From positions 930,001-994,000 of the forward strand of contig CP051228.1 of assembly GCA_017792345.1 (NCBI GenBank): DNA of 64,000 nucleotides. The letters are read 5' to 3'. Below the pieces are notes generated by a model. The model was given only the letters and a program-made list of their open reading frames with translations, was not told the origin of the DNA and did no database searches. Positions within the stretch are counted from its first letter, which is position 1. Each line of letters begins with the position of its first letter. Below, one piece after another: positions 15,565-19,132 of the stretch. The position numbers and the translations under genes are program-made. The stretch is from Mesoflavibacter sp. Lineage in GTDB: Bacteria > Pseudomonadota > Alphaproteobacteria > UBA8366 > Aestuariispiraceae.

Positions 15565-16647
15565 TCAGATTTCGATCTCGACCCTGCCGATCGGGTTGGA
15601 ACAACAGGCCAGCACCATGCCGTCGGCGATCTCCTTGTCGGTGATCCCGCCATTGTGGATCATGTGGACCTCGCCCGACGTCTTGCGGACCTTGCAGGTA
15701 CCGCAAACGCCGAATTGACAGGCCGACGGAATGTTTAGGCCCTGCGCCTTGGCGACCTGAAGAATGGTGTCGGTTTCGCTGCACGCCGCATCCAGACCCG
15801 ACGCGGCGAACCGGATCATCGCGCCGGCGGTTTCGTCCAATACGATATCGTCGTGTTCCGGGCGTTGATCTTCGGTCTGGATCGGCGCGTGGAAGCTTTC
15901 CTCATGGTAATGCGCCATCTCGAATCCGGCGGCGTTCAGAACATCGCGCACCGTCTTCATGAAGGGTTCCGGCCCGCAGCAGAAGATTTCCCGCTCCATA
16001 TAGTCGGGCGCCATCAGTTCGAGCATCAGTTGGTTCAACCGACCCCGATACCCGGCCCAGGCGGAGAACGGATCGTCCTCCTCCACCACGAAAGACAGTT
16101 TGATATCCGGCACGCGCTGGGCCATGCGGCGCAGTTCGGGTTCGAAGATCAGTTCCGACGGGCGGCGGGCGCAGGAAATCAGCGCGATATCCGTGTGCTC
16201 GCCATTGTCGAACAGCCAGCGCGTCATCGACATCATCGGCGTCACGCCAGACCCGGCGGAAATGAACAGATATTTGTCCGCCGGATACTGCATGAAGGTG
16301 AAGATGCCGCCCGGCCCATAGGCGCGCAGCCGGTCGCCGACCTTCACATTCTCCAGCATCCAGCGCGACCCGACACTGTCCTTCTGCGCCTTGACCGTGA
16401 CCGAGATCGACAGCGGCCGCGACGGTGAGGAAGACAGGGTATAGGTGCGTAACAATGGCTCCGGCCCGACCGGCAATTCCAGCGTGATGAACTGGCCGGG
16501 CAGATAACGGAACCAGCTATCGTCCGCCGTCTTGAAACAGAAGGACGTCACATCCGGCGCTTCTGGAATGATCATCATGCATTCCAGTTCCTTCGCGTCG
16601 GTCCAATAGGTCCGTTCGTCCAGGGCCTTGAATTGGGTCAGCCGCAT
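15565..16647 (-). CDS. gbcB: Glycine betaine monooxygenase, reductase subunit
   Basis: 360 residues. An FAD-binding ferredoxin-reductase domain (FRYLPGQFITLELPVGPEPLLRTYTLSSSPS), an NAD-binding domain (YLFISAGSGVTPMMSMTRWL, CCGPEPFM) and a C-terminal plant-type [2Fe-2S] domain (C in SACQFGVCGTCKVR, last Cys in LACCSNP) come in that order. It passes electrons from NAD(P)H to the Rieske subunit. It starts five bases after gbcA, so the two are one operon. ATG at 16647 was chosen because it immediately follows gbcA and starts the conserved region; the longer frame overlaps gbcA. The opposite strand frames are shadows. Confidence 0.9.
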   Translation of the reverse strand: MRLTQFKALDERTYWTDAKELECMMIIPEAPDVTSFCFKTADDSWFRYLPGQFITLELPVGPEPLLRTYTLSSSPSRPLSISVTVKAQKDSVGSRWMLENVKVGDRLRAYGPGGIFTFMQYPADKYLFISAGSGVTPMMSMTRWLFDNGEHTDIALISCARRPSELIFEPELRRMAQRVPDIKLSFVVEEDDPFSAWAGYRGRLNQLMLELMAPDYMEREIFCCGPEPFMKTVRDVLNAAGFEMAHYHEESFHAPIQTEDQRPEHDDIVLDETAGAMIRFAASGLDAACSETDTILQVAKAQGLNIPSACQFGVCGTCKVRKTSGEVHMIHNGGITDKEIADGMVLACCSNPIGRVEIEI

Positions 16648-16652
16648 TCCAG

Positions 16653-17891
16653 TCACTCCGCCGCTGCGGCCGGCGCGAAGGCGCCAAGCTGCCGGGTCAT
16701 CGCATCGCAATACCAGTCGGTGAACTGGCGCACGCCGGTTTCATGGATCGGCGAATAGGGGCCGGGCTCATAGGCCGGGGAATTCACCCCCAACTGGTTC
16801 TGTTCAACCAGCATCCGGTCCTGGTCGTTGGTCGCGTCCCAGACTTCGGTCAGCGTCTTCAGGTCATAATCCACGCCTTCGACCGCGTCCTTGCGCACCA
16901 GCCAGCGGGTCGTGACCTCCGTCTCCTGTGGGCCGATCGGATTGACATGGAAGGAGATGGCGTGATCGCGCAGCAGATGGTTCCAACTGCTGGGATAATG
17001 GAACAACAGCATGGAGCCGATGCGCTCTTCCCGGATCGCGCCCAGCGGCTTGGAACAGGCCGGTTTGCCGGACATGGTGAAGCTTTCGGTATCGCGCAGT
17101 AGCGGCACGCGCATGACGCGGTACTGGCCGCTGTCGTCCAGATAGAATTGGCTGGGCAGACCGGCCGCCTCGCAGCGGTTCCAATGATCTTGCAGGAAAT
17201 TGTCGCCGCCGGTCTGTTCGACCCCGGTGATGGTCGGCGCGTCGGTGAAGGTGCGGCACAGCTCCGGATGGGACCCGGAACAGTGATAGCATTCGCGGTT
17301 GTTCTCCCAGACCAGCTTCCAATTGCCTTTTTCGACAATCGTCGTCTTGTGCGCGACCTTGGTATATTCCAACCGGTGCGGCAGCATATAGGGCTCAATC
17401 CGCGCGCGGACCGGGGCGAAATCGGGCGGCGCATCGCTGAAATTGACGAAGAGGTAGCCGCCGACGCTTTCGCAGGCGACCGGCTTCAACTTGAACGCGT
17501 TGGGATCGAAATCCTGGCCCATCTCGCGGGCAAACAGCAGCTTGCCTTCCAGGTCGTAGGTCCATTGGTGATAGGGACAGACCAGACGCGCGGCATTGCC
17601 CTGCGCCGATTGGCAAATGCGCGAACCGCGATGGCGGCAGGCATTGTGGAAGGCCCGGATCTCACCGTCCGCGCCACGCAGGATGATCGCCTCGGCGCGG
17701 CCGACCCGATAGGTGGTGTAATCCCCGACCTCCGGAATCTCGCAGCCATGCCCTGCGAACAGCCATTCGTTCAGAAACAGAGTGTCCATTTCCAAATCGA
17801 AGACCGCGCGGTCGCCATAGAATTCCTGCGCCAGGGAATAGCCCGGCCGACGGGCGGCCAGCAGGCCTTGCACACGGTAAGATGCGTCCAT
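16653..17891 (-). CDS. gbcA: Glycine betaine monooxygenase, Rieske oxygenase subunit
   Basis: 412 residues. The Rieske [2Fe-2S] motif is C85-R-H87 and C105-P-Y-H108 (CRHRGS, CPYHQW). The mononuclear iron site is in ENNRECYHCSGSHPEL, and VWDATNDQDRMLVEQNQLGVNSPAYEPGPYS is a strong GbcA signature remembered from Pseudomonas aeruginosa GbcA. The reaction demethylates glycine betaine to dimethylglycine, releasing formaldehyde, with O2 and NAD(P)H. Start ATG 17891 has a TGAGGAG site. A cobalamin riboswitch lies about 145 bases upstream on the same strand, so expression should fall when cobalamin is plentiful. A related quaternary amine such as stachydrine is an alternative substrate. Confidence 0.88.
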   Translation of the reverse strand: MDASYRVQGLLAARRPGYSLAQEFYGDRAVFDLEMDTLFLNEWLFAGHGCEIPEVGDYTTYRVGRAEAIILRGADGEIRAFHNACRHRGSRICQSAQGNAARLVCPYHQWTYDLEGKLLFAREMGQDFDPNAFKLKPVACESVGGYLFVNFSDAPPDFAPVRARIEPYMLPHRLEYTKVAHKTTIVEKGNWKLVWENNRECYHCSGSHPELCRTFTDAPTITGVEQTGGDNFLQDHWNRCEAAGLPSQFYLDDSGQYRVMRVPLLRDTESFTMSGKPACSKPLGAIREERIGSMLLFHYPSSWNHLLRDHAISFHVNPIGPQETEVTTRWLVRKDAVEGVDYDLKTLTEVWDATNDQDRMLVEQNQLGVNSPAYEPGPYSPIHETGVRQFTDWYCDAMTRQLGAFAPAAAAE

Positions 17892-17910
17892 ACCGAATCT
17901 CCTCAGTCAT

Positions 17911-17929
17911 GCGCCGCATCCGGCGGCGC
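17911..17929 (-). promoter_or_regulatory. GC-rich hairpin just upstream of the gbcA ribosome site
   Basis: The minus-strand leader has GCGCCGC and GCGGCGC arms around a five-base loop, ending about seven bases before the TGAGGAG ribosome site of gbcA. It is a candidate expression platform of the cobalamin riboswitch, but no anti-hairpin was worked out. Confidence 0.4.
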
Positions 17930-18034
17930 GGTTGGTATGGTCGCTGGTGTTCTCAAGAGGACATCCCTTCCCCGCCCCGGCAACCGGCGGCGGACGGAAG
18001 GAAAGGCACCTCGTGATCGCCACCCGCGATCCAA

Positions 18035-18225
18035 GAGCAATCGTGCCTGGGCTGGTTTCCGGACTCGAAGGGAGTTGCTAGCCGAACGCGGCGCCTTCTC
18101 GGGACATTGCTTCCCAATGGCACTCGCCGCGCTTCAACCCTTCTTACCGTTGCGGGGGCAGTGCCGGGATCTCACCGGCTTCCCAATTATCCGGCCCGTC
18201 CAAAAAGGGACGGGCCGGCACCACA
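18035..18225 (-). promoter_or_regulatory. Cobalamin (AdoCbl-type) riboswitch upstream of gbcA
   Basis: Reading the minus strand 5' to 3', the conserved order is complete: a long GC stem (18222-18191), GGGAAGCCGGTGAGATCCCG, then CCCCCGCAACGGTAAGAAG, the B12-box region GCCATTGGGAAGCAATG, and GAGTCCGGAAACCAGCCCAGG near the 3' end. It ends about 145 bases before gbcA with no other gene between, so gbcAB is the target. Exact ends are approximate. Confidence 0.9.
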
Positions 18226-18314
18226 AGCGACCAGAATTTGCGCCTGGTCGTGTGTTTCCGATTTCTGCAACGCGACAGGTAACGTGCTGGCAGCGACAAG
18301 CCGACGATTTCGGG

Positions 18315-18764
18315 TCAGACAACATCATCCTGCGCATCGACCGCCGCCCCCGCCAACAGGCGGGCCAGATGCGGCATGTGTTTGGGGCGCAGGACAGGAC
18401 GCCACAGTCCGGTCTCGATCTCTCCGTTCGGGTCCATTGAATAGCGCTGTACGAAGGCCACCACCGCGTCAATATCGGCCGCCTGCCGAATCGGACCGAA
18501 CAGGAAGGCGGGCATTCCGTCCGCCCAAAGTGCGACGGCCGGGCCACTCTGGCACGCCCGAAGGCAGGCCACCGTCGCGACGTGTACCGGTGCGGGAAGA
18601 TAGCCGTGGGCCCTGCTGAGGCTTAGACCGGCACGAAGACGATCCGCCAAAATCGGCCGTCCCGAGACCGTGACCATCGGCACCGGTTCTTCCGCAAGGG
18701 CGCAGCCTTCACAGACTGCGACATGAACCTCTATCGCCGCGGATTTTCGGTCGGTTGTCGCCAC
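18315..18764 (-). CDS. DUF1636 family predicted metal-binding protein
   Basis: 149 residues from GTG 18764, which has an AGAGGAGG site six bases away; the longer frame reads into the riboswitch and is unlikely. The DUF1636 pattern is visible: an N-terminal VAVCEGC (two Cys, three apart), and VACLRACQSGPAVALWADGMPAFLFGPI, where two more cysteines form a probable metal or [2Fe-2S]-like site. In many Alphaproteobacteria this family is found beside cobalamin synthesis genes, and here it sits directly behind a cobalamin riboswitch. Its biochemical role is unknown; a link to cobalt or cobalamin metabolism is inference. Confidence 0.8.
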   Translation of the reverse strand: MATTDRKSAAIEVHVAVCEGCALAEEPVPMVTVSGRPILADRLRAGLSLSRAHGYLPAPVHVATVACLRACQSGPAVALWADGMPAFLFGPIRQAADIDAVVAFVQRYSMDPNGEIETGLWRPVLRPKHMPHLARLLAGAAVDAQDDVV

Positions 18765-18899
18765 AATCGGCCTCCTCTGCCCGGCTTGGACGAGGCGGTC
18801 GCGATGACAACGACGCTTGGCGCGTCTGACCTGTCGATGGATAAGTACCGTCCCATGCGCATCGCATCCTCCCGGCACGCCCCGACCGGATTGGGGTTG

Positions 18900-19085
18900 A
18901 ATTGCGATGGCAGGTCTCCTGACTCACGGATCGTCGCCCTGTTCCGGCCTTCCCGGTTTCCCAGTGGCCCAATCGGAACGGACTACCCGACTACAGTTGC
19001 GGGGACAGCCGCGGGATTGACCGGTCCGTCCGGACCTGAGCGCACCGCGTTCCCTTTTCATCGCCGGGCTTGAACCACGGCGAAC
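18900..19085 (-). promoter_or_regulatory. Cobalamin (AdoCbl-type) riboswitch upstream of the DUF1636 gene
   Basis: Minus strand, 5' to 3': AAAAGGGAACGCGGTGCG, then GCGGCTGTCCCCGCAACTGT, the B12-box GCCACTGGGAAACCGGGAAGG, and GTGAGTCAGGAGACCTGCC at the 3' end. These match the textbook cobalamin riboswitch core closely. The end lies about 140 bases before the DUF1636 start. Boundaries are approximate. Confidence 0.95.
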
Positions 19086-19132
19086 CATCACGGAAAAGGC
19101 TAGCAGGGGATCGAAGCAACGGTCAATCGGCG

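Follow-up and report, generated by a model that had tools for sequence, protein, structure and literature searches.

What does a cobalamin riboswitch control when the gene behind it encodes an oxygenase that would need no B12? This question is raised by a stretch of 64,000 nucleotides from Mesoflavibacter sp. (assembly GCA_017792345.1, contig CP051228.1, positions 930,001 to 994,000; the whole stretch is called the window here), in which a complete riboswitch of family RF00174 stands on the minus strand before a gene for a Rieske oxygenase resembling GbcA. We consider it probable that this is a corrinoid riboswitch of a distinct subtype and that the enzyme under its control is an N-demethylase that uses O2 and needs no B12, with glycine betaine or a closely related quaternary amine as its substrate; the pairing is confined, among the genomes examined, to those with B12-dependent machinery for a comparable task, a distribution that suggests a vitamin-saving backup route. 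The aptamer matches RF00174 over model positions 1-189 with 107.4 bits in cmscan (gathering score 31.5, E 6.4e-26), one of five such matches in the source genome, and 141 nt separate it from the start codon of the oxygenase gene, which begins at 17891. The reductase gene lies directly 3' of the oxygenase gene and is followed by a gene that by eye is leuS-like. Among open reading frames (ORFs) of at least 80 amino acids, the three that overlap the aptamer (17148-18440 and 18107-18619 on the plus strand, 18134-18547 on the minus strand) are without a Pfam match, and for this reason we take no gene to lie between riboswitch and oxygenase gene. A preliminary description of this DNA had claimed both the completeness of the minus-strand riboswitch and the lack of an intervening gene; the full-length RF00174 match bears out the former and the overlapping ORFs the latter, with an 85-residue ORF (17662-17919, minus strand) that overlaps the oxygenase gene start in another frame lying outside the Pfam scan. 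What that description overlooked is a second cobalamin riboswitch (125.5 bits in cmscan), 5' of a DUF1636 ORF that is itself the immediate 5' neighbour of the first element; the window thus holds two cobalamin riboswitches in tandem (Table 1).

The pairing of riboswitch and gbcA-type gene recurs. Of at least 80 nearest homologues in genome contigs, the 80 listed were searched with a core pattern, and the aptamer was found upstream in 55 of these 80; cmscan confirmed it in 7 of the 7 pattern-positive loci tested and detected no RF00174 upstream of any of the 25 pattern-negative loci. A class-wide draw of 385 genomes contained a gbcA-type gene at E 1e-120 or better in 14 genomes besides the source genome, and in half of them (7/14) cmscan places a riboswitch before it. 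Many Rhizobiales and some Rhodospirillales have this aptamer subtype ahead of gbcA, and in Tritonibacter the pairing is located on a plasmid. A full-text literature search, with regulon databases outside it, returned no published description of the pairing. By eye, riboswitch-less rhizobial and agrobacterial homologues (L035, L043, L047 and relatives) carry GATGTCGC-like motifs about 150 nt upstream of gbcA, and these are possibly the sites of another regulator.

Judged by sequence comparison, the gbcA-linked aptamers are a distinct subtype with a covarying P13 hairpin far from the start codon. The sequence CGGAAACCAGCC is present in all 61 distinct gbcA-type aptamers sorted by P13 (60 by pattern, L081 by eye) and in none of 13 other cobalamin riboswitches of the same loci; the gbcA-type aptamers mostly carry AAUUGGGAA in the core, and CAACGGU in 23 of 23 aligned, against GGAGACC (13/13) and CAACUGU (12/13) in the others. 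Set against the Rfam structure line, two of these changes keep a base pair by compensation, and the change of AGA to AAA falls in the unpaired junction J6/3, which we take to face the ligand. AAA is no strict marker of the subtype, since a G315 riboswitch has it as well, in front of a gene that by eye is cobU/cobP-like; AGA is present in all 14 remaining non-gbcA-type sites that were read, and L167, 1 of the 22 sites, was unread. The P13 hairpin was recognised by pattern in 56 of 63 leaders and by eye, with variant loops, in the other 7, its stem being weaker in L077 and L090. Across 38 distinct sequences, five of its seven pairs have changed on both sides and 93.2% of cells are paired; by most measures these values exceed those of shuffled or slid controls. 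The P13 loop sequence, CGGNGGG or CGGGYGG, complements L5 (in the window, CCCCCG in L5 and CGGGTGG in L13), and these kissing pairs come without covariation because both loops are nearly invariant. Where measured, P13 lies 82-202 nt before the start codon (about 125 nt in the window); by eye, the source genome's four other riboswitches have it beside the ribosome-binding site. When 64 genomes were searched with the signature-plus-P13 pattern, all 31 with the riboswitch and a single one of the other 33 gave a match, and a backward control pattern gave 0 of 64; the match in G322 and an extra one in G012 look like chance.

Among the genomes searched, the riboswitch co-occurs with a candidate B12-dependent counterpart. 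MtgB (pfam06253), MtgC and MtgD constitute a cobalamin-dependent betaine demethylase in aerobic bacteria, according to the available text of PMC12478193. Searches with pfam06253 (MTTB/MtgB) and with a MetH model that picks up separately encoded MtgC-, MtgD- and MtgE-like modules as well covered 49 genomes and then 15 more; G153 is without gbcA at the cut-off, and 63 gbcA-bearing genomes were counted, the genomes of L055 and L102 standing outside these counts (L102 is labelled riboswitch-less in the gbcA tree used below for the contrasts although cmscan finds a riboswitch there). Riboswitch and MTTB/MtgC-like genes occurred together in 31 genomes, the riboswitch without them in 0, these genes without the riboswitch in 8, and neither in 24, so that MTTB and MtgC-like genes are present in 31/31 riboswitch genomes and absent in 24/32 riboswitch-less ones (Fisher p 8e-11, kinship uncorrected). 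A full-length MtgD-like match was obtained in 29 of the 31, being missing in G004 and represented by end-of-contig pieces only in G305, whose MtgC-like match contains stop codons. MetH does not track riboswitch presence: it is over the cut-off in 45 of the 49 genomes, the exceptions being G001, G003 and G021 with a riboswitch and G026 with none. Each of the 49 genomes has at least two other cobalamin riboswitches, and the loss of the riboswitch before gbcA is therefore local. In the source genome, the search for a corrinoid betaine methyltransferase that the preliminary description had proposed was positive, yielding six MTTB/MtgB-family genes together with MtgC- and MtgD-like modules. One of the six lies near a choline-dehydrogenase-like gene and a gene whose FAD-oxidoreductase/GcvT layout is that of dimethylglycine/sarcosine dehydrogenases, with scores below the equivalog cut-offs, and one of the MTTB/Mtg homologues of this genome presumably takes betaine.

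As to how the aptamer would act on the gene, no intrinsic terminator was seen in 17880-18420, and intrinsic termination was rejected as the mechanism. Folding was predicted for 33 leaders, chosen as representatives of the 56 (out of 63) in which P13 was recognised by pattern. The initiation region was less open than with shuffled upstream sequence in 26 of the 33 (Wilcoxon 6e-6, kinship uncorrected), as was the start codon itself in 24; for the window's own start codon the unpaired value is 0.00, compared with 0.40 in shuffles. The complements of the start codon are lineage-specific, CCATACC/GGTATGG in the window and ATCCATAAC/GTTATGGAT in G349. Sequestration of the Shine-Dalgarno stretch alone was rejected: 19 of 28 leaders were less open there (mean z -0.48; the remaining 5 of the 33 had no recognised Shine-Dalgarno match), the window behaves in the opposite way, and the initiation region taken whole gives the better fit. 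The predicted start-codon pairing thus supports a translational platform, in which we infer the state that the ligand favours. With cobalamin plentiful, the aptamer would dock L5 with L13 and P13 would form, the leader would pair over the start codon and hold translation low, and betaine methyl groups would pass via MtgB-MtgC-MtgD to tetrahydrofolate; with cobalamin scarce, the start codon would be freed and formaldehyde-yielding demethylation of the GbcAB type would take over.

A number of results weigh against this account of a betaine backup route. Eight genomes have MTTB/MtgC and gbcA yet no riboswitch. Taken alone, the class-wide sample gives 8/0 versus 5/2 (p 0.20, not significant), and MTTB is common there anyway, in 13 of 15 gbcA bearers, with a background of 83/385 genomes in the class. 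The nearest-relative sample is clumped: of its 22 genomes without riboswitch and Mtg, 20 are one clade of the gbcA tree (support 89/93), the halves of which are unresolved in a second gbcA tree. Nine non-overlapping contrasts in riboswitch presence can be drawn by eye on this second tree, several via unresolved forks; four of them differ in Mtg as expected, none opposes the expectation and five show no Mtg difference (sign test 0.06). Because MTTB is a broad family, some of its copies act on other amines. In the window, the initiation region differs little from shuffles (0.34 versus 0.39) and the Shine-Dalgarno stretch on its own is open at 0.58, above the 0.40 of shuffles. Competition between P13 and the sequestering strand does not rise above shuffles (p 0.31), and the antisequestor that the 5' arm of P13 would form, suggested to the eye by the window leader and those of L014 and L015, is for that reason kept as a model only. 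A member of the glutathione-independent formaldehyde dehydrogenase family stands behind the same riboswitch subtype in G349 (711 versus 637 bits), but matches over the family cut-off were obtained in 1 of 18 riboswitch genomes and 4 of 7 riboswitch-less ones (5/25 in total), the source genome having none over the cut-off; since the family is so rare in riboswitch genomes, its link to the switch rests on one genome. Finally, the oxygenase does not reach the cut-off of the GbcA model NF058607 (512 bits, cut-off 670), nor does the reductase reach that of the GbcB model NF058606 (385 bits, cut-off 500).

These last scores bear directly on the substrate. Though below their cut-offs, the NCBIfam glycine betaine monooxygenase models are the best-scoring ones for the oxygenase/reductase pair. 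The oxygenase has the iron ligands of the Rieske centre (C85, H87, C105, H108) and of the mononuclear site (H203, H208), and it shares about 55% identity with the stachydrine demethylase Stc2, 56% with 3n0q and 48% with a Halomonas protein whose own 832 bits pass the GbcA cut-off. In trees its companions are Pacificispira, Hwanghaeella and the same-genus genome G427; the riboswitch-bearing L153, L155 and L156 group with Halomonas GbcA (support 100/99), the oxygenases of L153 and L156 scoring 635 and 655 of the required 670. A riboswitch-less homologue in Paracoccus versutus is part of a betaine-type operon (GlxA-type regulator, ETF, folD, fdhA, BCCT). On account of the iron ligands, identities, tree groupings and this operon, oxidative N-demethylation of a quaternary amine is the likely activity of the window enzyme, and glycine betaine is put forward as first candidate substrate only, because the oxygenase falls below the GbcA cut-off. 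A role as replacement for a corrin-ring oxygenase was considered and judged less likely, as the GbcB-type reductase and the Mtg link favour demethylation instead. The same switch logic could also serve another substrate (stachydrine, a carnitine-derived compound or another quaternary amine), with a different MTTB paralogue as the B12 partner. We regard this as possible though on balance doubtful: the low GbcA score, the closer identity to Stc2 and 3n0q than to Halomonas GbcA, the six MTTB paralogues of the source genome and a subtype riboswitch before a divergent Rieske oxygenase in G003 all point towards it, but the clustering of riboswitch-bearing homologues with Halomonas GbcA, the near-threshold scores of L153 and L156 and the resemblance of the P. 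versutus operon to betaine catabolism argue for betaine. The gene names gbcAB used in the preliminary description accordingly hold at the level of the family, and their finer meaning is called into question by the missed equivalog cut-offs and the 55% identity to Stc2; the metE/metH-like logic that it drew has gained comparative support (31/31 versus 0/24), while betaine as the substrate is not established by a score short of the GbcA cut-off.

A broader proposal is that the gbcA-linked subclass would sense another corrinoid state, such as methylcobalamin, via the AAA of J6/3, and would govern a B12-sparing betaine regulon comprising Rieske demethylases, formaldehyde dehydrogenase (in one genome) and, via sister switches, PF02574 genes (in two related genomes). 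The chemical fate of betaine methyl groups would then be decided by B12 status. According to the available text of PMC9600662, changes at a small number of residues in the binding site can shift the preference for the upper ligand; we nevertheless hold this proposal to be unlikely.

Two further explanations are both very improbable. Cobalamin shortage might induce betaine breakdown not in order to replace a B12 enzyme but because corrin synthesis draws on glycine and one-carbon units; betaine stimulates B12 production in some bacteria, and alphaproteobacteria make 5-aminolevulinate from glycine by the C4 route. Against such precursor feeding stand the 22 near relatives that have gbcA and other cobalamin riboswitches, lack a switch before gbcA and are without MTTB/MtgC. 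Alternatively, cobalamin might raise gbcAB expression. The lack of a terminator-like site and a P13 that by eye does not abut the ribosome-binding site of the gene, unlike that of the source genome's four other riboswitches, would fit such an activating switch, and one activating corrinoid riboswitch is described in the available text of PMC10653944; by the same text, however, all those known earlier repress, and a link to a B12-dependent alternative is hard to square with activation. That the riboswitch belongs to the DUF1636 unit, with gbcAB a chance downstream neighbour, is suggested by the tandem arrangement in the window and is scarcely credible, being contradicted by the recurrence before gbcA in many Rhizobiales and some Rhodospirillales and by the same-genus genome G427, where the only RF00174 match at locus L146 is that ahead of gbcA.

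Table 1. Elements of the riboswitch-oxygenase locus and its surroundings, in window coordinates
Feature	Position	Strand	Basis
Cobalamin riboswitch aptamer RF00174, gbcA-linked subtype	18033..18239	(-)	cmscan, 107.4 bits
L5 stretch CTGCCCCCGCAAC, kissing-loop side of the aptamer	18149..18161	(-)	L5-L13 rule from the available text of PMC10653944
Subtype signature CCGGAAACCAGCC (J6/3 AAA and 3' strand of core helix)	18050..18062	(-)	sequence pattern
P13 hairpin GATCGC-GGGTG-GCGATC, loop complementary to L5	18015..18031	(-)	covariation
CCATACC, perfect complement of GGTATGG; proposed sequestering strand	17934..17940	(-)	complementarity
GGTATGG, containing the oxygenase start codon	17888..17894	(-)	predicted pairing
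Rieske oxygenase subunit, GbcA/Stc2 group, 412 aa	16653..17891	(-)	NF058607, iron ligands
FAD/2Fe-2S reductase, GbcB type	15565..16710 as listed; likely start about 16647 by eye	(-)	NF058606
Second cobalamin riboswitch, canonical GGAGACC core	18892..19104	(-)	cmscan; P13 next to GGGAGG ribosome-binding site by eye
DUF1636 protein between the two riboswitches	18315..18878	(-)	PF07845, 46.4 bits versus 31.6

Some genomes have a second site of the subtype, counted here where a pattern match is also found by cmscan. Besides the sites already mentioned in G349 and G003, one lies before a second gbcA-like copy in Sinorhizobium fredii G011, where the match is weak (43.3 bits), and one before a small ORF in L037. 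The S. fredii genome (C154:5534-6699, plus strand) seemingly has two gbcA-like copies, each behind a riboswitch, and the contig of one copy also has a formaldehyde dehydrogenase gene, matched as two pieces that overlap. Proteins of about 100-125 residues, alike by eye, are encoded downstream of cobalamin riboswitches at L002 (1718 onward, plus strand) and L037 (8348-8719, minus strand); that of L037 has no Pfam match. Genes of the PF02574 homocysteine S-methyltransferase family stand behind a cobalamin riboswitch in G349 and G259; such riboswitch-led PF02574 genes in two genomes of the window's family, L186:7887-9356 (plus strand) and L187:6258-7707 (minus strand), possibly provide a B12-free route to methionine. 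Genes for the alpha subunit of NrdA/NrdE-type ribonucleotide reductase lie behind cobalamin riboswitches in L017 and G428 (L188) according to cmscan and in L078 and L086 according to the core pattern, and in all four loci they are within a few kb of the gbcA riboswitch, in the manner of islands of B12-independent isozymes.

Regulation of this general kind is familiar: metE and class I ribonucleotide reductase genes stand under cobalamin riboswitches, and metH and nrdJ encode the B12-dependent isozymes. The gbcA pairing resembles these systems in placing a cobalamin riboswitch before a B12-free alternative to a B12-dependent route, and NrdA-type genes behind such riboswitches occur near gbcA in the four loci just described; it differs in that the target is a catabolic, O2-dependent Rieske oxygenase and not a biosynthetic enzyme, and in that the two routes are chemically unlike, one giving formaldehyde and the other methyl-tetrahydrofolate. 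'Isozymes of B12-dependent enzymes' is a defined class of riboswitch-controlled genes in PMC3766115, the main text of which, as available, is without the words 'betaine', 'Rieske' and 'dioxygenase'. With GbcAB of Pseudomonas and Chromohalobacter, the window pair shares the two-gene layout, the Rieske and mononuclear iron motifs and the FAD/2Fe-2S reductase, and it differs from them in falling below the NCBIfam cut-offs and in standing behind a riboswitch. The Pseudomonas gbc genes answer to a betaine-sensing AraC-type regulator, not to a riboswitch. Stc2/Stc4 of Sinorhizobium meliloti is the system with the roughly 55% identical oxygenase, and the two S. meliloti loci examined differ in adjoining a LysR-type regulator gene and in having no RF00174 match. 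MtgBCDE, the cobalamin-dependent betaine methyltransferase with a split methionine synthase (PMC12478193, available text), has homologues in the source genome and is the proposed B12-dependent counterpart, from an enzyme family unrelated to the window oxygenase; in the same text the word 'riboswitch' appears only within a cited title. As a riboswitch, the window element agrees with RF00174 in its full-length match, its L5-L13 complementarity and its P13, and departs from it, like the rest of the subtype, in the J6/3 AAA for AGA, in (mostly) AAUUGGGAA and CAACGGU, and in the distance of P13 from the start codon.

Thus, the kind of regulation, a cobalamin riboswitch on a B12-free alternative, is known, and what is new is the class of target, the marked aptamer subtype and the unusual platform. 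In the available text of PMC12478193, many marine aerobes are described as using MtgBCD for cobalamin-dependent betaine demethylation, with gbcAB as a separate, rarer route; homologues of both occur together in 31 genomes, and in these the B12-free route is apparently wired to B12 status. If the account of a betaine backup route is true, isozyme switching by cobalamin riboswitches would extend from biosynthesis (metE, ribonucleotide reductase) to the breakdown of a major osmolyte. The prediction would then be that, in alphaproteobacteria of soil and sea, vitamin supply helps to set how fast betaine is turned over, how much formaldehyde is made and how one-carbon units flow.

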